A DNA stretch of 64,000 nucleotides from Allorhodopirellula solitaria (lineage in GTDB: Bacteria > Planctomycetota > Planctomycetia > Pirellulales > Pirellulaceae). The notes below the pieces were generated by a model. That model was not told the origin of the DNA and did no database searches. It was given only the letters and a program-made list of their open reading frames with translations. Made by a program: the position numbers and the translations under genes. Below are positions 1 to 19,944 of the stretch, piece by piece; position 1 is the first letter of the stretch; the number at the start of each line of letters is the position of its first letter. Location of the stretch: NCBI RefSeq assembly GCF_007859855.1, contig NZ_SJPK01000010.1, forward strand, positions 62,001 through 126,000, in the 5' to 3' direction.

Positions 1-248
1 TCGTCGACCATCGAATGGACATCTTCGCATCGCGACACGTCCGCTTTCACCAGCATCACGTCGGCATCGGCCGCCTTTCGCTCTGCGATCTGCTTGGCGA
101 CCTCGACAGCTTTTTCTTGCGAATTCAGAAAGTTGACTGCGACACTTGCGCCACGAGCAGCCAATTCCAGCGCGATCTCGCGCCCAATCCCTCGACTCGC
201 TCCGCTCACGAGAGCTCGCTTTCCCTTCAGATCTTGATTCATTTTCAT
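1..248 (-). CDS. FabG-like short-chain dehydrogenase/reductase (3' part outside window)
   Basis: The visible 82 codons start with ATG at 248, and this ATG overlaps the TGA stop of the upstream megasynthase as ATGA, so the two are very probably translationally coupled. The Rossmann glycine motif VSGASRGIG lies near residues 14-22. It is followed by a helix and the second strand VAVNF, as in FabG-type 3-oxoacyl-ACP reductases. A second in-frame ATG six bases downstream (242) is an alternative start. The catalytic Ser-Tyr-Lys region is beyond the window edge, so activity cannot be judged. Its position suggests a trans-acting ketoreductase, or a tailoring reductase, for the lipid or polyketide made by the neighbouring synthase. 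That role is inferred from context. Confidence 0.85.
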   Translation of the reverse strand, partial: MKMNQDLKGKRALVSGASRGIGREIALELAARGASVAVNFLNSQEKAVEVAKQIAERKAADADVMLVKADVSRCEDVHSMVD

Positions 249-3200
249 CCCAACCATCCAATTTGATAACCGACGAGTTCCAAGATGCAGTCGCCATTGA
301 GCCCCATTAGGCTGGCTCGGAGCGTGGCACCGTTTTCATCGTCACTCTCGCAGTCCACGATCACTCGGAGCGGTTCCCCCGGCACGGGCAAGCGGCCGAT
401 TTTGATCGTGTCGAATGAGATCGGCAGACTCGGTCGGCCGCCGACACGGTAGGCCAACATCCCCGCGGCATAGAGCACCGCGTCCATCGCGGCGGGCGAA
501 ATCACCCATCCTCGCAGCGGTCGATTCTCACCTGCGAGATGCGAGGGACTGGGCGTGACAATCACCCCCATGGCAGTTCGCCCATCGGCGGTGAAGCCGA
601 GTTCTCGCAGACATTGGAACTGCGGTCCGTGGTAAACGGGAGCGTCGATGGATTGATAGTGGACCACATTGTAGTCAGACGGCTCAGACCGTCTGGACTC
701 TCCATCAGCCGCTACTTCTCGCGACGGGCGGAGCCGTCGGTCGACATTGTAGTCAGACGGCTCCGACCGTCTGGACTCTCCATCAGCCGCCACTTCTCGC
801 GACGGGCGGAGCCGTCGGTCGACATTGTAGTCAGACGGCTCCGACCGTCTGGACTCTCCATCGGCCGATACTTCTCGCGACGGGCGGAGCCGTCGGTCGA
901 CATTGTAGTCAGACGGCTCCGACCGTCTGGACTCTACATCGGCCGCTACCTCTCGCGACGGGCGGAGCCGTCGGTCGACTTTGTAGTCAGACGGCTCCGA
1001 CCGTCTGGACTCTCCATCGGCCGCTACCTCTCGCGACGGGCGGAGCCGTCGGTCGACATTGTAGTCAGACGGCTCCGACCGTCTGGACTCATCATCAGCC
1101 GCCACTTCTCGCGACGGGCGGAGCCGTCGGTCGACATTGTAGTCAGACGGCTCCGACCGTCTGGACTCGCCATCGGCCGCTACTTCTCGCGACGGGCGGA
1201 GCCGTCGGTCGACATTGTAGTCAGACGGCTCCGACCGTCTGGACTCATCATCGGCCGCTACTTCTCGCGACGGGCGGAGCCGTCGGTCGACATTTTCTCC
1301 CAATTCGATGGTGGCACTGAAGTGTGGCCGCGAGGCTTCGACGAGACGTCCGTCGCGGCGTCGCAGGTCGCTGACGAGCGTCCATCGCTGGTGCGATGGC
1401 GAGGTGCTCTCCGGTGCAGCACCCTGCGCATTCACTGGCAGGAGTTCCACGGAGATGGGATCCGACGTCAGGCATTTCAGGGGACGATGGGCCTGCACGT
1501 CGTGCAATGCGATGACACCTCGGTTGGTTCCGGCTCGAGCAGCTTCGGCGAGCATCTCAATGGCGATCACGAACGGCAAGGTGGGACGTCCTTGCACCAA
1601 GTGCTCGCTCAAGAATCGATCGCTGGTAGGGTCAAGCGTGACGTTATGCGAGGCGAAGGACGCAGAGTCTTGCCATTGACTTCGGTCGCCTTCGGGATCG
1701 AGCATCGGTAGCGGCAGGCCGATTTCGCAACGATCGGAACGCCTCGAAAGCTCACTATCGCAGGAACACGTCTCCTCGCCTTCGGGAAAGAACTTCCGGA
1801 CGTATCTCCGGTCCGTAATCAGGACTTCCGTCGCATCGCCGCCACACTCGATCTCGTTAAGGAAGTGTTGCAGGCCCTCATGGGCGGGCATGAAATCCAT
1901 GCCGATCATGTCGAGGGCTAGTTTCGCCTCGGGTTTCGTGGCCATGCCGATGTCACCCCAAGCATGCCAATGAAACGTGACGCAGTGGGTATCGGGACGT
2001 TCTTCTTGCAGGTTGTCGATCAGTTTGGCCAGCATATCGTTGGCAGCAGAGTAGTCGGTATGCCCATTGGCTCCAAAGCGGCCACTGATGCTACCGAAGC
2101 CGATGAACCAATCGAGCGGATCGCGGCGAGTTGCGTTAGCCAAGGCGATACAGCCATCGATCTTAGCGCGGAAGCATTTCTCGACTTTGTCAGGGCGTTT
2201 GCGATCAAATCGGGCATCTTGACCGGCACCGGCACCCTGAATCACGCCGCGAATCGGACCATCGCTGTGGCGAATTTGCTCGATCAATCGATTAACAGCC
2301 TCAACGTCGGAGACATCGACGCTGTGATAGACGGCATCAATCGAGCGTCCCCGGCAGGCTTGCAAGGTTTGGTCGATCTCGATCGCCTTTTCGAGCTTCT
2401 GCCAAGTGGTGACGGGGTTGCCACCTTGAGCCTGGGTGCGGCTCATGACTTGGCGGCGTAGTGCCGGTCGATCCGTCGCCGCTTTCACACGGGTGGCCTC
2501 ATCGATCTGGGGGACCGGTGCAGTGCCGAGCAGATGCAGTTTCAATCCGTGCCGCGACGCCAGTTCCATGGCGGTCAGCGCCGTAATTCCGCGTCCGCCA
2601 CCGGCAACGATCCAATTGCCCCCAGGCGTAATCTGAGGCGATGTCGTGGACGAAGTCGAGGTTGGCAGGGGGCTGTAACACGCGGCGGTGGCGAAACGCT
2701 GTTCAGCCCCGACAGCGACTTCTTCATCGTAGGAAGGCACTGCGAGTTCGCGCCAAATGCCGGCCGTGACATCCGCGGCAGTAGCGTCCGGCAGCGGATC
2801 GATAATCAACATCGGCGTGTCGCGGTAACCGCGCATCCAAGCTTCGATCAACATCGCTTTGGTCAATCCGGACAGGCCGCCGGATTCGGACGAGACCAGA
2901 CCGGAGCGGTCGAAATGGAAGTTGCCAGCGGAGCGCACCACCGTCGCGAGCGTCGCGTCGGAGATGCGGTCTTCGTCAATCAGTCCCTGCATCCAGCGTT
3001 GGCACAATCGGAACGGATTGCTCAGTGCAGCCCCACGCCGTGACTGCCACACCGCAGCATCGGTCGTTGCCCAAACCGCGTCATCGTCATGGGGCGTCGT
3101 GATGAACAAGTGCGGCGAAACCCCGTCTGCCCACAGCGCGTCCAATCGAGCATCCAACTGTTCCGGCGACACCGATGAATCCAACTGCTCGATCGGGTAC

Positions 3201-6200
3201 TGCGACGAGCGAGAATCCGCTCGCCACCGTGCAAGAATCGCCCGAGAAATCGAATTATTGCCCAGCACCAATGCGGGACCGTGCCAGTCCGGACAGGTCG
3301 GCATGTTGGGCAGGCGCGGGGTAGGACGCATTGCCATCACGAACCGATGGGTTCCCGTCGCCGGGACCGGCTCGGCTAGCGTGGGTTCAACTCCGTTTTT
3401 TTTTTCGAGAGTCGACACGGAGACGGATCCCGACCCACCTTGCGACTCAGCCGTGGAGCCGATTTGCTCCCACACAAAGGCGCGAATGGATTCGAGTGTG
3501 GCGAAGTCAGCGAGTGACAAACCGGAATCCTGGAGCGACTCGAGCTGGTATTGTTGGGCCAACTCACCGAGTAACTGCGCCTTCTTGATACTATCGATCC
3601 CGAGTTCGCCCTCCATGTCGGCGTCCATGTCGATAATCGATTCATCGTATCCAGTTTGGTCAACGACCAGGTCGATCATCAAACGACGCAGGGACTCATC
3701 CGTATCGGCGACATCATGGTCCGCTTCGTCCCAGGGCTCCGGTGCAGCGTCCGCCACGATCTCCGGAGATGGCTCAGGAGCGGGATTTTCAGAATCCTGC
3801 TGCGTCGAAGCGGGGGCGAGAATCCCCAGGATATCGTTGAGCGTTTCGAACTGGGCAAGCTGCATTGATTGAACGTCGACCGGAGTGTCGGCCCACTGGA
3901 CGATCTCACCGATCAACTGCGCTTTCTTGATACTGTCGACTCCCAGTTCCGCTTCTAGATCCGCATCAAACTCGATGATATCCGGGTCGTAGCCGGTCAG
4001 GTCAACGGCTAAATCGAACAAGAACGAACGGGCACCTTGCAATTCGGGGGCAGACGAAGCGTCGACGGCGGGCACCGTTACCGAATCAGCCTGTGCCGCC
4101 GGGGCGGCTGTGGCAGACCGACCGTTTACTAGTGTATCGGTTGCCCGTGTTAAGGTTGCGTGTGTTTCGGTTGCGGGCGCGGGGGCGATTGCAGGTCTTG
4201 CAGAGCTGTCCGCTGCAGACGGCTTGGGCTCGGATGAAGGCGGGCGGCGACGGTTGCGCGTCACATCGACAACCTCAAACAGATTCTCATTCGAACCGGC
4301 TGCGGACTCAGGGGCAACGTGAGTTGACGAAATACCGCGAGCCGACGAGGGAAGTTGTCCCGGAGTGGGTGTCGTTTGAGCGTTCGCTGGGGATTGCTCA
4401 AAGGATTCGCAGGCCAAGTCGATGAGTCGTTGTTGCAGCCCGTATTCACGGCGGCGATCATCGGCACTGAGGCAGATCGCCCGCCCATCCACGGTCGCTT
4501 GGGCGAGCCGGGTGAGCACGTTGTCGGGGCCAACTTCAATCAACAAGCCGCAGCCTTCGGCGACGATCCGTTGCAGGGCGCCATTGAAACAAACCGGGCG
4601 CGTCAGTTGATGGATCAGGTTGTCCATCAGATCGGTCGGTTCAGCAAGAAAACGATTCGAGACCGCTGAGAGGAACCCTAATCGCGGCGGCATCAATAAC
4701 TGCCCGCCGAAGCGGGCACGCAACAGGTCCTGCGCCGGCTGCATCGCGGGCGTGTGGAATGCGGCGGGGACGTGAATCACCACGGCGGCCATTCCCGCTG
4801 CGATCAAATGTTCTTTGGCGGTTTGGATGTCCTGCTTTTCTCCCGCGATCACCGTGCTCAGGGGTGAATTGTGGTGCGAGATCACGGCGCCGAGTTTGTG
4901 CCGGTCGATCACGGCCTGGACCGCAGACGGTTCGCCGCGGACGGACAGCAATTGACCACCGACTTGGCGTGTCATGATCACGGCATCACTACGGCACTTG
5001 GCGAACTCAATCGCTTGGTCGATATCCATCACACCGGCCGCCCATGCCGCGGTGCATTCACCGAAGCTATGCCCGAGCACGACATCGGGGCGATATCCCC
5101 GATGGAACAGGGAATCTGTCATTGCCGCGCCAACGGCGAGCACCCACAACTGCGTCCACCACACATCGCGGCCGAGCTGTCCTTGGGGATCGGCCAAGCG
5201 ATCGCCGACCGGCTCGATGCCTCGATTTTGCAACCGCGCGTCGACGTCTCGCAGGAACGATCGTGCCCTCTCGGCGTACGATGCACGGGAGTCGGGTGAG
5301 AGCAGGCGTGGGACGGCAGGATATTGGGATCCCTGCCCGGGGAAGAGCCACCCCACACGACTGCCCGCGGACTCTCGACAGCGAATCCAGGCAAGATGTT
5401 TCGCGATGGCGGTCGTTCGCCGGTCCATCAACGGCCCCGCTACGATTGCCTCGGCAGCGGCAGCAACCTCCTTGGTGTCTCGGCCGACGATGGCAATGTC
5501 AATGAGGTTCCTCGTAGCCGATCCCTCGCGTGCGGAGAGAGTTCCAGCGAACGTATCGACTGCCGACGACAAGGTCGAGCGAGGAGGTAGCTCCGCGTTC
5601 GTGTTGCCGGCGAGCAATCTCAAATCCTGTTCGAGACGGCTAGGATCGCTCGATTGCAAGCGAATCTGCAGTCCCCCAGCAGGTGATTCGACCGGCCCAG
5701 TCACGACAGGGTTGCCAGTGGCCGGTTCCATCCGCTGCGAACCAGCGGAAGAGTTCGCAGGGTGTGTCTCGCGAGGGCGGGACATCGATGGGGCGGACGC
5801 TCGGATCATAGGAGTCGGAGTGGGCTGTTTGGCAATTTGATATTCGATTTGGTAACCGTCCTGCGCTGTCTCGCAGATCCGCTGGACTGGCGGTGCCGCC
5901 GGTGACTGTTCCATCGCGATCGTGGCGGCCAGCGTCCGGACGATTCCTTGTCCACCGCCGAGATGCCCCAACTGGGAGATCAATTTCGGCACCGATGTCT
6001 CCCGATAGGCCGCTGACTGCCGAGCCTCATCGGCGCGGGCTCGGGCCACGTCCTCGGTCCAACTCTCCGCAGCGTGCTCGAGGACGCCAAAAATGGGTTG
6101 GTTCTGTGCGACGGCATCGGAGAATCGCTGCAACATCATGATGGCAACTCCTTCGCCGGGGAAGATCTGAGACCCGTCTGCCGGTAGATCTTCGGGTTGA

Positions 6201-9200
6201 CCGGATTGGACCAACAGACACTTCCTGTGCAATTGTTCAAAGGCGACTAGGTCCATCGAGCGATGCGTCGTGCCGCACAGAACAGTGTCCACCTGTCCGC
6301 GTCGCAACTGTTCCATCGCCGTCACGATGGCGAGCCCACCGGACGCTTCGTCGGCGTCGACGGCGCAGGCGCCGCCCATCAGATCGAATGTCCGGGTGAG
6401 ACGTGAAGCGAGTGTGCTGGCGGTGAATCCACCGGTCTCGTCGAGCAAGGCGGGATAACGCTGCATCACAGCTTCGTGAAACTGCTCCACGATCGGCTGC
6501 ATCGTCTCATCGGACACCCCTTCCCGGCGGGCGATCTCGAGGAAGTGTTTGCGTACTTCCGGCAAGCGCAACCCGATTTGCAGTGCGTTGCTGAACTCGC
6601 CTCCAAAGATCGTACCGACGACGACTCCGACGCGAGTTCGGTCGACTGACCATGTTCCCCCGTCAAACTCCTCGATAGCCTGCGCGGCCGCTTGAATCAG
6701 CATCAACTGAGCGGGGTTGGCGTAGCGCACCGTTTTCGGTGGGATACGATATCCTTGGGCATCGAAATCGAAATCGCGGATGTAGCCACCCCGGCAGTGC
6801 GGGATTCGGCCATCGTAGTCCGCGCCAAGGGCAGCGGTCTGATCAACACCGATCCAGCCTCGATCGCGAGACCGCTGAGGCCAGCGTCCGGGAGGCGGGT
6901 CACCGATGCAGCTCTTGTCGGACTTTAGCCGCTCGGCGAGTTCAGCGAGATTCTTGGCACCCGGCAATACCAGGCCGCGCCCTACAATCGCGATCGGTTC
7001 GGGTACTTGCCGCTCGACTCCGCTGCGGCGAGACGTCTGGCCAGCCCGATCTGATTGCCGAATGACCACATGAGCATTCAGGCCACCGATACCGAACGCA
7101 TTGACGCCCGCGACCCGGGAACCGGAGGCATTGCGGCGGGGCCACGGCTCGATCGAATCGACGACGCGAACGGGGGAATCCGTCCAGTCATAGGTCTCAT
7201 TGGGCTGTTCAAAATGAATCGAAGGTGGCAGTTGCCCCTTTTGCATGGAGATCAAACATTTCACCATGCCGACCAGTCCAGCAGCTTCGAGTAGGTGCCC
7301 AAGATTGCTTTTGACACTTCCGATAGCCAATGCCGTTTGCGAAGGTGGGCGCGAGCCGGACTCCGGTTCGCTCCGCAGTATCGCCTTGAGAGTCTCGAGC
7401 TCGGTGGCGTCACCGACCTGGGTACTCGTCGCATGGCACTCCAGATAATCGACGTCCAAGGTTGCCTCTGCTGCGGAGGCCCCCCGGCGGATCGCGAGCT
7501 GTTGGCCTTCACTGCGAGGCGCCCACAGCCCCTTGCCTTTGCCGTCCGACGCGACACCGACACCCGCGACAGCAGCATGAATGGGCAGTCCAAGTCGCTC
7601 GGCGACACTGCGACGAACCAGCACGATGGCGACATAGCCTTCGCTGCTAATCAATCCGCTGGCGCGGCGATCAAACGGATAGCACCCCTCGTCACTGCAG
7701 GCACCTGACTGCGAGAACAAGGCAAGATTATCGACATTATTGAAAGTCGCCCCGCCCACCACGGCGACGTCCAAATGGTCCGCAGTAATCGCCGAGACAG
7801 CGTGATGGAGTGCAAGGAGCGACGAAGAACAGGCCGCATCAATGACTTCGCGGCGACCACGAAAACCGATCAAGCCAGCAGCAAGAGATGCGGCGCTGTA
7901 TGCGTTGAAACTGGGCGATCGATCGGACTGCCAGCTCGGCCGCCCCCGGCGAATGGCGGCGGTCAGATCGGCTTTGAGCCGATCGATGCCAGTAGAATCC
8001 ATGCGTTGGCCAAGATCCGTTTCTTCGATCAATTCTGAGGTCGCCGACGCGAGCGTGCTCATTGCCAGCGGACCACCGGATTGGGTTCCGCCACTATGGC
8101 CGACCAACACACCGGCCCGTTGGGGATCCAACCCGGCGAGGGCATCGATCGTTTCCACGCCAAAGGCGGACTGCACAGCTGCCATCGCAACCTGCGCGAA
8201 TTGTCGATGGGTTAGATCGAAATCGCCGACCGCGTTGATGCGCCGTTCCCGCTCCGCATCGAGCGGCTCGGGAGCGACACAGCCGCCGAGTTCTGTATAG
8301 GTTTTCCCTGGCAGATTTCGCTCGGTGTCGAAATACAGCGAGCGATCCAACCGATCCTCGGGCATCAGCGCGACGCCTGAGCGTCCCTGCCATAGTAGAT
8401 TGGCGAAATCGTGGGCGTTGTCCACGCCGCCGGGCAGGCGAACCTCGTATCCGCAGACAACGATCTCATCCCCATCGTGGTCGCTGCCCTCGGCGTGGGC
8501 AGTGGAGGGTGCGAATTCGCTCTCGGCAGTGCTTCCGCTCTTGGCAGTCTTCCCGCTCTCGGCAGCACTTCCGCTCCCCCGCGCCTGGCTGGCTTGTGGG
8601 ATAGTCTGCGTCTTGGGGTCAGCCGAATTGTCCGTGGAAACATCGCGTCTCGGCTTCCGCTCGGCGGCCGAGGACGTGAACGCTGACCAGTGACGCACCA
8701 TTTCCAATAGCTCGTCGGTACGAATTTCCGGCGTGGGCGCCAGCTCCGTTTCTGCAATCACGCGGTCAATGTGATGACGGCCGAAGGACGGATCGTCGCG
8801 GAAATAGGGCAAGAAAGTCTTCACGAATGGAGCTGCCATCCGATCAAGTTCGGATTTCTCGTCCGCATTGAGCCTGGGGGACGCTGGGCGATTACTCGGA
8901 CGGCGGCTCACACGTGTGGGCCGGCTGAGCCAAGCTTGGGTCGCGGTCCGAAAGGCCCCGTCCAAATCGCTCACCGTCGTGCCCGATTGGGAGGTCAAGT
9001 GATAGGTTTGGTCGTGATAGTGTGGTGTGGAAATGACAGCCAAGATCGCGTCGGCAATCCAATCAACGTCTACAATATTCTTTTGTTCAGTACCGTCAAA
9101 ACCGAGATTGCGAAACCATTGTCCATGATCGGGCAGCCCGAAGCGGGACGCCAACATTTGGTACATGGAGAATGCACCGTAGATCGTGCGATCACCTGAA

Positions 9201-9883
9201 ACCGGCGAAAGCCCCGTCCGGTCGATCACGATCGACGGGCGATAAATCGTCAAAGAATCGAGGTTTCCTGCTTGCCATGCTTCGCGGAGCATGGCTTCAG
9301 CCATACTTTTGCTGCGTTCGTAGTCATTGGCGAAACTCTGACCGATATCCAATTCGCTCTCGAGCACCGTCCCACTCCGCTGGCCACAAACGTAAGCGGT
9401 TGAGACATGGTGAAACCGCGACAGATTAGCTTCTCGGCAGAAGTCGAGGACATGAGCGGTCCCGTCGACGTTCGTTCGGTAGGGCTCGTTGTCCGCTGAT
9501 TCACTTGCCGGTGCAAAGCTCAAACTCGCGGCGCTGTGCAGGATTTGACGGCAGTTCTCGGCAATCCAACGCGTATTCTCGGTCAGCAACCCAAGGCCGG
9601 GTTGGTTCAAATCGCCTTGAAAGACTCGCGGCCGATCGAGGGCGACGTTCCACGCCTGTTCGAAGCGACTGAGAATCTGCTCGATCCGTTCAGCGGCGTT
9701 CTGAGTGCCCTTGCCACGGGCGATGACAGCGAGCGGTTGCCCCAGACGCAGCCACTGAGCCATCACGTATGAACCCACCATCCCAGTGGCCCCGGTCAAC
9801 AGCAACGTCCCCGTCGAGGTACTCTTGGAACGCAAGCTCGCCTCGCGAGGGATACTGTCTCTGGAATCGGAATCTCCACTCAC
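245..9883 (-). CDS. Iterative type I PKS / PUFA-synthase-like megasynthase (SDR-KS-KS(CLF)-AT-ACP-ACP-KR-DH)
   Basis: This 3212-residue protein carries a complete assembly module. Residues about 25-395 form an extended SDR like carboxylate or thioester reductases (GATGMVG at 31-37; Y188 and K192 in YERSK). KS1 starts near 470 and has the triad C685 (DAACSSS), H817 (HATST) and H863 (NLGHLLEAAG). A second KS starts near 960, but the nucleophile position is E1179 (VDADEASG), so it resembles a chain-length factor. The AT starts near 1513, with S1606 in GHSFGE. Two ACPs carry phosphopantetheine serines S1984 and S2098 in the DSIKKAQL motif typical of PUFA-synthase ACPs. The KR has GGGRGI near 2428 and Y2611. 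The C-terminal double hot-dog DH has H2761 (HxxxGxxxxP) and D3134. Residues 2864-3071 are an in-frame repeat insertion between the two hot-dog halves. No thioesterase, enoyl reductase or phosphopantetheinyl transferase is visible. The product is probably a long-chain, possibly reductively released, lipid (inferred). Confidence 0.92.
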   Translation of the reverse strand: MSGDSDSRDSIPREASLRSKSTSTGTLLLTGATGMVGSYVMAQWLRLGQPLAVIARGKGTQNAAERIEQILSRFEQAWNVALDRPRVFQGDLNQPGLGLLTENTRWIAENCRQILHSAASLSFAPASESADNEPYRTNVDGTAHVLDFCREANLSRFHHVSTAYVCGQRSGTVLESELDIGQSFANDYERSKSMAEAMLREAWQAGNLDSLTIYRPSIVIDRTGLSPVSGDRTIYGAFSMYQMLASRFGLPDHGQWFRNLGFDGTEQKNIVDVDWIADAILAVISTPHYHDQTYHLTSQSGTTVSDLDGAFRTATQAWLSRPTRVSRRPSNRPASPRLNADEKSELDRMAAPFVKTFLPYFRDDPSFGRHHIDRVIAETELAPTPEIRTDELLEMVRHWSAFTSSAAERKPRRDVSTDNSADPKTQTIPQASQARGSGSAAESGKTAKSGSTAESEFAPSTAHAEGSDHDGDEIVVCGYEVRLPGGVDNAHDFANLLWQGRSGVALMPEDRLDRSLYFDTERNLPGKTYTELGGCVAPEPLDAERERRINAVGDFDLTHRQFAQVAMAAVQSAFGVETIDALAGLDPQRAGVLVGHSGGTQSGGPLAMSTLASATSELIEETDLGQRMDSTGIDRLKADLTAAIRRGRPSWQSDRSPSFNAYSAASLAAGLIGFRGRREVIDAACSSSLLALHHAVSAITADHLDVAVVGGATFNNVDNLALFSQSGACSDEGCYPFDRRASGLISSEGYVAIVLVRRSVAERLGLPIHAAVAGVGVASDGKGKGLWAPRSEGQQLAIRRGASAAEATLDVDYLECHATSTQVGDATELETLKAILRSEPESGSRPPSQTALAIGSVKSNLGHLLEAAGLVGMVKCLISMQKGQLPPSIHFEQPNETYDWTDSPVRVVDSIEPWPRRNASGSRVAGVNAFGIGGLNAHVVIRQSDRAGQTSRRSGVERQVPEPIAIVGRGLVLPGAKNLAELAERLKSDKSCIGDPPPGRWPQRSRDRGWIGVDQTAALGADYDGRIPHCRGGYIRDFDFDAQGYRIPPKTVRYANPAQLMLIQAAAQAIEEFDGGTWSVDRTRVGVVVGTIFGGEFSNALQIGLRLPEVRKHFLEIARREGVSDETMQPIVEQFHEAVMQRYPALLDETGGFTASTLASRLTRTFDLMGGACAVDADEASGGLAIVTAMEQLRRGQVDTVLCGTTHRSMDLVAFEQLHRKCLLVQSGQPEDLPADGSQIFPGEGVAIMMLQRFSDAVAQNQPIFGVLEHAAESWTEDVARARADEARQSAAYRETSVPKLISQLGHLGGGQGIVRTLAATIAMEQSPAAPPVQRICETAQDGYQIEYQIAKQPTPTPMIRASAPSMSRPRETHPANSSAGSQRMEPATGNPVVTGPVESPAGGLQIRLQSSDPSRLEQDLRLLAGNTNAELPPRSTLSSAVDTFAGTLSAREGSATRNLIDIAIVGRDTKEVAAAAEAIVAGPLMDRRTTAIAKHLAWIRCRESAGSRVGWLFPGQGSQYPAVPRLLSPDSRASYAERARSFLRDVDARLQNRGIEPVGDRLADPQGQLGRDVWWTQLWVLAVGAAMTDSLFHRGYRPDVVLGHSFGECTAAWAAGVMDIDQAIEFAKCRSDAVIMTRQVGGQLLSVRGEPSAVQAVIDRHKLGAVISHHNSPLSTVIAGEKQDIQTAKEHLIAAGMAAVVIHVPAAFHTPAMQPAQDLLRARFGGQLLMPPRLGFLSAVSNRFLAEPTDLMDNLIHQLTRPVCFNGALQRIVAEGCGLLIEVGPDNVLTRLAQATVDGRAICLSADDRRREYGLQQRLIDLACESFEQSPANAQTTPTPGQLPSSARGISSTHVAPESAAGSNENLFEVVDVTRNRRRPPSSEPKPSAADSSARPAIAPAPATETHATLTRATDTLVNGRSATAAPAAQADSVTVPAVDASSAPELQGARSFLFDLAVDLTGYDPDIIEFDADLEAELGVDSIKKAQLIGEIVQWADTPVDVQSMQLAQFETLNDILGILAPASTQQDSENPAPEPSPEIVADAAPEPWDEADHDVADTDESLRRLMIDLVVDQTGYDESIIDMDADMEGELGIDSIKKAQLLGELAQQYQLESLQDSGLSLADFATLESIRAFVWEQIGSTAESQGGSGSVSVSTLEKKNGVEPTLAEPVPATGTHRFVMAMRPTPRLPNMPTCPDWHGPALVLGNNSISRAILARWRADSRSSQYPIEQLDSSVSPEQLDARLDALWADGVSPHLFITTPHDDDAVWATTDAAVWQSRRGAALSNPFRLCQRWMQGLIDEDRISDATLATVVRSAGNFHFDRSGLVSSESGGLSGLTKAMLIEAWMRGYRDTPMLIIDPLPDATAADVTAGIWRELAVPSYDEEVAVGAEQRFATAACYSPLPTSTSSTTSPQITPGGNWIVAGGGRGITALTAMELASRHGLKLHLLGTAPVPQIDEATRVKAATDRPALRRQVMSRTQAQGGNPVTTWQKLEKAIEIDQTLQACRGRSIDAVYHSVDVSDVEAVNRLIEQIRHSDGPIRGVIQGAGAGQDARFDRKRPDKVEKCFRAKIDGCIALANATRRDPLDWFIGFGSISGRFGANGHTDYSAANDMLAKLIDNLQEERPDTHCVTFHWHAWGDIGMATKPEAKLALDMIGMDFMPAHEGLQHFLNEIECGGDATEVLITDRRYVRKFFPEGEETCSCDSELSRRSDRCEIGLPLPMLDPEGDRSQWQDSASFASHNVTLDPTSDRFLSEHLVQGRPTLPFVIAIEMLAEAARAGTNRGVIALHDVQAHRPLKCLTSDPISVELLPVNAQGAAPESTSPSHQRWTLVSDLRRRDGRLVEASRPHFSATIELGENVDRRLRPSREVAADDESRRSEPSDYNVDRRLRPSREVAADGESRRSEPSDYNVDRRLRPSREVAADDESRRSEPSDYNVDRRLRPSREVAADGESRRSEPSDYKVDRRLRPSREVAADVESRRSEPSDYNVDRRLRPSREVSADGESRRSEPSDYNVDRRLRPSREVAADGESRRSEPSDYNVDRRLRPSREVAADGESRRSEPSDYNVVHYQSIDAPVYHGPQFQCLRELGFTADGRTAMGVIVTPSPSHLAGENRPLRGWVISPAAMDAVLYAAGMLAYRVGGRPSLPISFDTIKIGRLPVPGEPLRVIVDCESDDENGATLRASLMGLNGDCILELVGYQIGWLG
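671..1294. repeat. Eight tandem 78-bp palindromic (BIME-like) units inside the megasynthase DH region
   Basis: Eight units start at 671, 749, 827, 905, 983, 1061, 1139 and 1217, each exactly 78 bp. Every unit holds two inverted repeats, AGACGG-N6-CCGTCT and CGACGG-N6-CCGTCG. The second is nearly the reverse complement of the first (15 of 18 bases), so a unit is a pair of opposed REP-like palindromes. The length is a multiple of three, so the host frame stays open and gains 26 residues per unit, containing VDRRLRPSREVAAD and SRRSEPSDYN. The opposite strand is also open throughout. Units differ by only a few substitutions, which suggests recent amplification. Confidence 0.95.
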
Positions 9884-10351
9884 GCGTTCGCCTCCCCGAA
9901 CGAGAGACGTGCTGGTGCCCAGTCGATGTACCTCATCAGCATGAAATTGGCTTTTCGCAGAGGATGAATGGGAGAAGAGAGACGAGACAGTTCATCATAA
10001 TCACCAAAATGGGGAGCCAAGGCAAATCTTGAGGTCGGTTTTGACATCGCTGTAGCTGCCTACGGATTATTCGTCTCGGACGGATTGTGGGGGATGAAAC
10101 CAGGCGAGCGGGCGAACCAGCCTCGCCATGGGACTGAGGGGGAAACTTGCGAACGCCACAGTGCTCTGATCCGGTCGGGCAGCACCCGCGAAGCTGCCTA
10201 CAGTGTGAAGATAGGACAGATAGAGAGTCTGTCCAGCTCCTGTTGTCCGTAAGATGCCCGAATTCTGGTGAAAAACAACGGCTGAGCAATTGGGTCAACC
10301 GAACACAGTAGGTGAATACCCATTTCACTCAAGCTCGGACGAGTTGCGGAT
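9884..10351. other. Divergent intergenic region, no convincing gene
   Basis: This 468-bp stretch separates the minus-strand megasynthase from the plus-strand lipoprotein gene and should hold both promoters. No clear sigma-70 pair, operator or RNA structure was recognised. A minus-strand frame across 9936-10328 is open, but its translation shows no domain, no signal peptide and no obvious ribosome binding site. Confidence 0.5.
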
Positions 10352-17763: not shown

Positions 17764-18479
17764 GGTTCGGATGGGAGGTTGGTAGCAGTCTGACGCCTGT
17801 CCTGGGCGGCCTCAGCCATCAAGGCGTCAGCCAAATCATCGCGGCCAGCCGCCCGCATATCGTCGATCAACGACGCATACTCTTGCCGCAGATAGTGATC
17901 TTGAGTCGCTCGCAACGCATCAACATCGTCGATCGGGCGGACCAATTCCAGCAATCGCGGCATCAAAATGTACAGCTCTCGCTGGGCCAGTGTGGCGATG
18001 GTAGGCCACAACACGCGAGCCAGTTGCGGGTGTTTTTGGCTCCACTGGCTCCAAAAAAGCCCACTCGTTCGGCGGAGTCGGAGCTGGCTGAGCAACAGGG
18101 CCGCGTCATCGTCGAAGCGCTCCCCGGCACCGCGCCGCAGCGAGACGAGATGCCATACCGAGGGCGGCGTCGACGGTGGCGAAATCCATTTCTTCTGGCT
18201 CAGCAGTCGGGCTGTTGCGGGAGTGCTGCGGGTCCGTTTAATCGGGGTGATCTGCCAATGAATAATAGGGATTTCGTAAAATGAAAAACGCCGCGAACGA
18301 AAATGAGTCGGGGAAAATTCTTCTCCCTCGACATACCCCATCGTGCGGACAATGCCCCATAGCACGACGCCAAAAACGATCGCAGAAACCAGCGTAATCC
18401 AGATCTGGGATCCACTGATGCGGCGGGAGGGGGACGGCGTGTTCAGGCGACAATACTCAGGTAGGTGGCGAAAAGACAA
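17760..18479 (-). CDS. Hypothetical single-pass membrane protein
   Basis: The 239-residue product has one hydrophobic segment near residues 27-45 (WITLVSAIVFGVVLWGIV) that would anchor it with a short basic N-terminus inside. The remainder is Arg-rich and soluble, and ends in a helical region (LRQEYASLIDDMRAAGRDDL). No family was recognised. It is the first gene of the operon leading to the cysteine desulfurase (four-base ATGA overlap) and the dnaA homologue. It diverges from scpB, with a gap of about 170 bp if scpB starts at 18649. Confidence 0.7.
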   Translation of the reverse strand: MSFRHLPEYCRLNTPSPSRRISGSQIWITLVSAIVFGVVLWGIVRTMGYVEGEEFSPTHFRSRRFSFYEIPIIHWQITPIKRTRSTPATARLLSQKKWISPPSTPPSVWHLVSLRRGAGERFDDDAALLLSQLRLRRTSGLFWSQWSQKHPQLARVLWPTIATLAQRELYILMPRLLELVRPIDDVDALRATQDHYLRQEYASLIDDMRAAGRDDLADALMAEAAQDRRQTATNLPSEP

Positions 18480-18648
18480 GGCTCAGGCGTGTGACGAAAA
18501 GACGAGGCCGGAGGCCGACACAATGATCTATTTCCTTTTGCCCTTTTTCACGTTGCAGCCCCTCATGTGTCTAGAGATGCAACGGAGACTTGGCCATGAT
18601 ACGGTCAATCAACATGTAATCGGCAGGGCATTTCCCATTCCAACCAGT

Positions 18649-19944
18649 ATGAATCCTTACAGTGCTCCTTGGCAACGCGTGACCTCGCTTGGCGGCCGGG
18701 TCACAGCCGCCACCGCGTTTCCGCCCCTTACCGCCCCACGGCGGCGCGGGCCTGCCAATGTCCCGCATACTGATCACTCGCCTGGCAGCGACGGACAACG
18801 TGCATTCCAACGCGACGCCGAAGACCGGTTGGCCGAGCCGACCGAGCCCCACAAGCCGACCGAGGAGGAGGCCGGCGGCGCCGAGGCGGGCCCAGACACT
18901 CTCGATGCGTCGGTCGCCCGTAGCCGGGTCGAGGCGTTGCTCTTGATCGCAAAATCCCCGCTGAATTACCGTAAAATTGCCTCGCTGGCGGGACTCGAGG
19001 ATGCGACGCAGGCGCGGACGCTTGTCGCCGAACTGAACGAACTCTACGATTCCCTCGGCCGGGCTTTTCGCATTGAACAGCTCGCGGGGGGCTGCCGGAT
19101 GATGACCCGTTCGTTCGTCGCGCCCTGGTTGAGAAGACTCGGCGTTTTAGCTCCAGCCATTCGCTTGAGTTGGCCGATGATGGAAACGCTCGCAGTGGTG
19201 GCGTATCGCCAAGACGTCACGCGGGCGGATGTCGAAAGCGTTCGTGGAGTCGCTTGCGGAGAGATCCTGCGGCAATTGATGCAGCTCGATTTAGTCCGAA
19301 TTAGTGGCCGCAGTGAAGATCTCGGACGACCCTATCTCTACGGTACCACGAAACGTTTTCTAAAAATCTGTGGATTGCCAACGATTAATGCCTTGCCAGC
19401 GATTGACTCACAGAGATTCTGTGATGATGTTTCTGGTAACCTAATCGCTACAGAAAATGATGGCGATTCTGAACTTTCCCCTGCTATCGAACCGGTCGAC
19501 GAGACCGCTTCCCAAGTCCCCAAGGAGTCTGACGTGAGTCTCGCAGTGACCGACGCTCTCGCCACCGATTCGGTGTTGTCTCATTTCGCAACCGGCGTCG
19601 CCGACGCGGCCACGGAGTCGTTTGATGACGTGACTGCCTCCGCATCGAGCGATGCGGCGCCCGCAGCCGTTATCGAAGACGAAGAGGACGACCTCTACGA
19701 ACATGGTCTCGATGTCGACGATGACGAGGACTTCGTAGACGATGATGAAGATGATTGGGACGACGACGAGGATGAAGATGCCGACGAGGATGATGACCTC
19801 GACGACGATGACGACGAAGACATCGATGAGGACGATAGCTGGGAAGAAGTCGACGATGACGACGCCGACGAAGATTGGGACGACGAAGACGACAGCGACG
19901 AGGAAGATGACGACGACGATTGGGATGACGACGACGATGACTAG
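18649..19944 (+). CDS. scpB: Segregation and condensation protein B (ScpB) with long acidic tail
   Basis: The ScpB tandem winged-helix region is clear. It runs from RVEALLLIAKSPLNYRKIAS through LSWPMMETLAVVAYRQDVTR and IRQ-type motifs to GRPYLYGTTKRFL, where the conserved GRP-x-(L/Y)-Y-GTT box closes the domain. ScpB joins ScpA and SMC in the bacterial condensin that organises and segregates chromosomes. The open frame extends back to 18343, but that would overlap the divergent neighbour, so ATG 18649 (MNPYSAPWQ) is chosen, giving 431 residues. After the domain come about 90 variable residues and then about 85 residues made almost wholly of Asp and Glu. ScpB proteins are usually near 200 residues, so this tail is a large addition. 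No scpA is in the window. Confidence 0.88.
   Translation: MNPYSAPWQRVTSLGGRVTAATAFPPLTAPRRRGPANVPHTDHSPGSDGQRAFQRDAEDRLAEPTEPHKPTEEEAGGAEAGPDTLDASVARSRVEALLLIAKSPLNYRKIASLAGLEDATQARTLVAELNELYDSLGRAFRIEQLAGGCRMMTRSFVAPWLRRLGVLAPAIRLSWPMMETLAVVAYRQDVTRADVESVRGVACGEILRQLMQLDLVRISGRSEDLGRPYLYGTTKRFLKICGLPTINALPAIDSQRFCDDVSGNLIATENDGDSELSPAIEPVDETASQVPKESDVSLAVTDALATDSVLSHFATGVADAATESFDDVTASASSDAAPAAVIEDEEDDLYEHGLDVDDDEDFVDDDEDDWDDDEDEDADEDDDLDDDDDEDIDEDDSWEEVDDDDADEDWDDEDDSDEEDDDDDWDDDDDD

Follow-up and report, generated by a model that had tools for sequence, protein, structure and literature searches.

A tandem array of palindromic repeats is read in frame inside the dehydratase (DH) domain of a megasynthase gene of Allorhodopirellula solitaria, in the 64,000-nucleotide stretch of genomic DNA analysed here (called the window below). 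We put a probability of about 0.8 on the reading that this array is a frame-safe REPIN-like satellite, derived from a repeat family that burst in this one genome, which grew in a permissive linker of the DH and is tolerated there. The features concerned are listed in Table 1.

Table 1. Features of the megasynthase gene and of the repeat array (positions in the window)
Feature	Position	Strand	Remarks
Type-I megasynthase gene, 3,212 aa	245..9883	-	Pfam
DH C-terminal hot-dog half	245..670	-	Residues 3072-3212, Asp3134, plus stop codon
Array, 8 x 78 bp	671..1294	-	Residues 2864-3071; consensus NVDRRLRPSREVAADGESRRSEPSDY; predicted disordered
REP-A of the first unit, GTAG tag and palindrome	671..700	+	Recurs every 78 bp
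REP-B of the first unit, inverted, GTCG-tagged palindrome	718..745	-	17-nt spacer at 701-717
DH N-terminal hot-dog half	1295..1639	-	Residues 2749-2863, PKS_DH_N, His2761

TRF reports a period of 78 bp, 8.1 copies, 96% matches, no indels and a score of 1146 over positions 666-1294, and from position 671 on the sequence divides into eight units in register (671-748 to 1217-1294), all mutually distinct, with 2-6 base differences per pair. Read on the plus strand, each unit begins with a GTAG-tagged palindrome of 30 nt, which is followed by a spacer of 17 nt, an inverted palindrome of 28 nt and 3 further nt. The palindrome with the terminal GTAG (GTAGTCAGACGGCTCCGACCGTCTG) is present in the array, whereas its inverted partner is tagged GTCG instead and ends, on the plus strand, in the complement of this tag. 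Each REP of the array folds into a hairpin, one unit folded as RNA having a computed energy of -34.8 kcal/mol, and no known structured RNA matched at the Rfam gathering score in positions 1-10000 of the window. A CRISPR was ruled out, because the spacer repeats along with the whole 78-bp unit and unrelated spacers are not seen. A first-pass annotation of this DNA had described eight near-identical units of opposed REP-like palindromes adding 208 residues in frame, and both statements agree with the unit comparison and with the position of the array in the minus-strand open reading frame. Its further statement that neither strand has stops applies to the coding frame, which is open on the minus strand together with two plus-strand frames, but not to the three other frames, which are closed by 8, 6 and 16 stops.

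In the megasynthase, Pfam recognizes NAD_binding_4, a ketoacyl synthase (two stretches), an acyl transferase, two ACP stretches, a KR and PKS_DH_N. On the NCBIfam models PKS_plus_SDR and PfaA the protein falls far short of the cut-offs, so we call it only a PUFA/PKS-like type-I megasynthase. The DH matches the profile of the CurK DH (E = 1.3e-5), and the best PDB matches of its predicted fold are PKS dehydratases (best E = 6e-11). By sequence and by model it has the two halves and the His2761 and Asp3134 of a double hot-dog PKS dehydratase, both residues having been noticed as intact in the first pass; the histidine sits in an HxxxGxxxxP motif. An AlphaFold model of this DH, built on a 9-sequence alignment with eight orthologues, has a mean pLDDT of 65.3 and a pTM of 0.62 over its whole length. 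The array spans model residues 175-382 and residues 182-375 are below 50, with values mostly of 34-42 over the array compared with mostly 82-96 over both DH halves. Since this region of low confidence is flanked by confident halves, the array is predicted to form a disordered excursion between them. The earlier placement of the array between the hot-dog halves is thus borne out by Pfam, the predicted structure and the fold matches, and the structure prediction that had been proposed as a check for a surface loop yields, in this model, a disordered loop between folded halves.

The palindromes, which the first-pass annotation suggested looking for elsewhere in the genome, are abundant there, and outside this genome the REP family is almost absent from those searched. 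The exact REP-A pattern GTAGYCAGACGG-N3..8-CCGTCTG occurs 163 times in it (G000) and the reversed control pattern 0 times, which places the array beyond chance. Among the other 12 species of the genus (the sample being 13 genomes, one per species) the pattern occurs twice in G007 and 0 times in the remaining 11, and only two of 199 genomes drawn from the family Pirellulaceae, this one and G007, contain any exact match. BLAST with the 78-bp unit gave 233 matches in this genome, a similarity search with a family unit gave 10 in G007, some of them half units, and the encoded array peptide, searched at E up to 1e-5, matched one of 60 genomes, this genome itself. High copy number, dispersal and units paired in opposite orientation are all found, as in GTAG-tagged REP/BIME families.

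Sequences were sampled in 31 stretches around listed repeats and 9 around transposases. The 31 REP-targeted stretches contain 32 REP arrays with periods of 75-191 bp (L069:1313-1463, not a REP array, was removed from a list of 33), a lower bound for the genome because further REP places lie outside these stretches, and 29 of the 32 could not be tied to a gene. Their periods leave remainders of 0, 1 and 2 on division by three in 12, 9 and 11 cases, which indicates that arrays arise in all frame classes. Spacers are alike within one array and differ between arrays, several arrays sharing related spacers. Growth in place is seen at L083:6435-7583, where this genome has six units of 191 bp and G007, at the site with matching flanks (L125), a single decayed REP pair. 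Two arrays on different contigs, L079:3942-4359 and L081:4266-5108, have a nearly identical 90-bp unit, as if an array or a unit had been copied, and four arrays with nearly the same 82-bp unit lie within about 6 kb at L073:3553-9614 (contig C15).

REPINs were reportedly described by Bertels and Rainey in 2011. In the strict sense the term applies to RAYT-linked elements, and the association with RAYTs also appears in Di Nocera et al. (2013; PMC3733652). The genome has 16 Y1_Tnp matches, and none has a tagged REP within 1.5 kb by regular expression; the nearest REP-like sequences seen are, for one of them, an 18-bp match at a distance of about 2.3 kb and, for a second, an exact REP at about 3.8 kb (C1:493300). 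As no RAYT adjoins a tagged REP, the strict RAYT-linked class was set aside and we call the unit REPIN-like only; mobilization by a RAYT would be hypothetical. At L099 (C20:1622-6637) a stretch of about 5 kb holds three matches to Y1 (RAYT-like) transposases, none of them beside this REP family.

Two other arrays are read in frame. The first, 6 x 114 bp (C10:60190-60872, L075:8191-8873), lies 1.1-1.8 kb before the start of the window, in a 705-codon acyltransferase-like open frame that neighbours the megasynthase gene, and shares its REP reading frame with the DH array (VDRRLRPS ... RRSEPS). The 705-codon frame holds an HHxxxDG motif; Pfam found nothing in it, the sole NCBIfam match, to a wax-ester synthase, scored far under the cut-off, and its orthologues in G007, G008 and G010 are repeat-free and also close to the megasynthase gene. 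The second, 9 x 90 bp (C2:753765-754607, the L081 array mentioned above), makes up the C-terminal part of a 506-codon frame, the first 160-180 residues of which are matched in all 12 congeners. The three arrays encode 208, 228 and 281 residues (DH, acyltransferase and C-terminal array, respectively) and all have periods divisible by three, a property which is partly built in, because other periods can hardly stay open in a gene. Chance can also leave a frame open across an array, and the frames of 414 and 240 aa at L077, which are largely repeats, were taken as examples of this. Three arrays followed by long ORFs (L084, L087 and L093; Pfam was run on the downstream ORFs of the first two) were judged to precede the gene proper or to coincide with its start. 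They are not counted as coding, because in the common REP frame their variable columns show no bias between codon positions (5/5/5, 1/1/0 and 7/5/7, respectively) and no synonymous excess was found in any of the six frames. None of the other open frames that span an array can be assigned to a gene on the present evidence. In the window itself, GAC-rich tandem repeats at 19750-19941 occupy the 3' end of ORF 18343-19944 and would encode an acidic tail if this ORF is a gene.

The differences between units suggest that the in-frame arrays are translated. Variable columns fall at codon position 3 in 6 of 8 cases for the DH array, 6 of 12 for the acyltransferase array and 6 of 9 for the C-terminal array, that is 18 of 29, compared with 64 of 177 in 11 control arrays (54/59/64 over the three positions; one-sided Fisher test, p = 0.008). 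This test covers 15 of the 32 arrays, those in which a constant period allowed the units to be separated; L065 yielded just two units. The frame of the C-terminal array was fixed after its phase counts had been seen. That array and its relative L079 (5/1/0) then left the pool of 13 clean arrays in the common REP frame (65/62/65 before their removal), so that L079 ended up outside both the test group and the control. When the two mid-gene arrays only are compared with all 13 other arrays, the counts are 12 of 20 and 65 of 192 (p = 0.02). Synonymous changes number 6 of 10, 5 of 13 and 7 of 11 in the DH, acyltransferase and C-terminal arrays (2.8, 3.5 and 3.4 expected; p = 0.034, 0.25 and 0.023), together 18 of 34 with 9.7 expected (combined p = 0.009). 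The acyltransferase array alone is not significant, either for codon position (p = 0.18) or for synonymous changes, and four control arrays read in six frames gave no synonymous excess in 24 tests, the lowest p being 0.12. The codon-position signal, with its 29 columns, is modest, and the case for translation of the arrays and for removal of amino-acid changes by selection is a fair one without being strong. A translated array peptide under weak purifying selection is thus supported, short of proof.

The DH flanks were matched in 17 of the 60 genomes searched, including this one. The linker was compared in ten close orthologues, in three more (L145, L147 and L148, from Rubripirellula obstinata, Stieleria tagensis and a MAG) and in others aligned, more distant matches being partly read. 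The linker peptides of three congeners are identical to those in records of Neorhodopirellula pilleata, Aporhodopirellula aestuarii and Rhodopirellula europaea, which places the present genome in the Rhodopirellula group of Planctomycetes. From HFSA to YHG the ten close orthologues have 40-51 residues and no array, and the array was not found in the three others or in the rest of those aligned. The linker varies freely in sequence and length among the orthologues examined, and the conserved unrelated 200-residue domain that had been named as evidence against the first-pass reading was looked for and not found in those read. Excluding the array, the protein described here has about 25 residues between the same motifs, compared with 40-51 in the orthologues, so the array was not simply added to a linker that otherwise stayed as it was; native linker was either lost or short beforehand. 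In G007, the closest relative by the megasynthase gene (72% over the DH C-terminal half), the DH linker holds a REP-like trace that agrees at 20 of 24 bases and keeps the frame (shuffle test, p about 0.016), which is not significant after correction because it is one of nine orthologues tested; as an ancestral trace it was set aside as suggestive only. Alignment A1 omits L044, a near-duplicate of L043, A2 omits L151, which matches in two pieces in different frames, and A3 additionally omits L150.

A plausible course of events would begin with a burst of the REP family in this genome, the GTAG-tagged REP and its inverted partner serving as the starting pair. Such a pair, either already present in the variable linker that joins the two hot-dog halves of the DH or inserted there, would have multiplied in place, a duplication of 78 bp giving a unit divisible by three; this duplication may have occurred by slippage, by unequal recombination or with the help of a transposase. 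Since the unit is 78 bp long and its reading frame is stop-free, gains and losses of units keep the gene in frame, and the array would from then on behave as a frame-safe minisatellite. Its product would be a disordered loop of 208 residues, charged and rich in Arg, Ser and Glu, which the DH would tolerate. The simplest filter would be frame plus fold, frame-safe units surviving in flexible linkers or tails.

The first-pass annotation had also envisaged an expansion on its way to inactivating the DH, and more generally, relaxed selection on the DH, or on the pathway as a whole, could be letting the satellite accumulate in a gene that is being lost. Arrays in two neighbouring genes are what relaxed selection on a pathway predicts, and the gene seems dispensable in the genus, since the DH query is unmatched in 2 of 12 congeners (G001 and G012) and weak in a third (G003). 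Decay is nevertheless unlikely: the 3,212-aa frame has no internal stop, the DH keeps 99 of the 103 positions that are invariant in seven orthologues, like the orthologues themselves in the same test (93-99% kept), both mid-gene arrays have periods divisible by three, as 12 of the 32 arrays do, and the changes between units lean synonymous. We see no sign of decay in the DH sequence, which leaves the idea of an inactivating expansion unsupported, and the enzyme is probably still active.

It is also conceivable, though less probable still, that the array itself is selected, repeat linkers in the two neighbouring enzymes tuning spacing, docking or stability with an adjustable copy number. The common REP frame of the two arrays and the codon-position bias are in line with this proposal. 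However, a peptide that simply has to leave folding undisturbed would be expected to show the bias just as well, the third in-frame array belongs to an unrelated gene, 29 of the 32 arrays found were not tied to genes, and the orthologue linkers vary freely. Finally, although a 62-contig draft (6.8 Mb) could miscount units, a 624-bp array exceeds a short read and the family is highly repetitive, an array collapsed, expanded or misplaced in assembly is very improbable, given that all eight units differ, that among the matches listed no second site aligns with at least 70 bases of the unit at more than 83%, and that the frame continues on both sides at a site about 62 kb inside a 216-kb contig.

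The satellite grown and tolerated in the linker, which remains our preferred reading, can be compared with known systems. Di Nocera et al. (2013; PMC3733652) report GTAG-tagged REP families in Planctomycetes and R. baltica, and intragenic GTAG and CGTC REPs in several species, the larger intragenic clusters encoding 43-82 residues. The BIME/REP assignment of the first pass therefore stands as regards the family and its in-frame growth, but the accompanying remark that such elements are almost always intergenic needs qualifying in the light of that paper. The array resembles the GTAG-tagged REP/BIME/REPIN families described there in its short palindromes with terminal GTAG, their opposite pairing with the tags outside, their many copies and their tandem clusters, some of them intragenic; it differs in the GTCG tag of the partner REP and in that none of the transposase genes has this REP at its side. 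The same source describes Rickettsia palindromic elements, likewise palindromic repeats in frame inside protein genes, with a CGTC end. Compared by description, the present repeats have GTAG and GTCG ends and form whole tandem arrays, and identity with the Rickettsia elements was ruled out by these end tags. Prokaryotic coding satellites, characterized in PMC6749651 as tandem repeats with a unit divisible by three and likely read as amino-acid repeats, are similar in this respect, but as described there they differ from the coding arrays found here, which stem from a dispersed palindromic element that also forms arrays with no gene assigned. Neither a tandem REP array in a megasynthase nor this family was found in the titles and abstract beginnings of the open-access papers that the literature searches listed. 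Intragenic REPs are thus already known, and what is new here is a large tandem variant, with three cases in one genome and built-in controls.

A bolder proposal, which we consider improbable, is that REPIN-like satellites act as frame-safe linker generators that in this species have replaced the native linkers of two neighbouring enzymes in a lipid/polyketide-looking cluster, providing a reversible spacer tunable by copy number; if this were true, linker length could vary while the gene stays intact, with possible effects on how the enzymes behave from cell to cell. As it stands, a dispersed palindromic repeat is apparently becoming coding sequence at a scale of 208-281 residues, above the 43-82 residues of the intragenic clusters given in PMC3733652, and natural controls are provided by the arrays of the same family to which no gene could be assigned and by a relative with about ten copies. 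With these, one can test how a selfish repeat turns into protein that is tolerated, and whether satellites that persist in genes are filtered by a unit length compatible with the frame.
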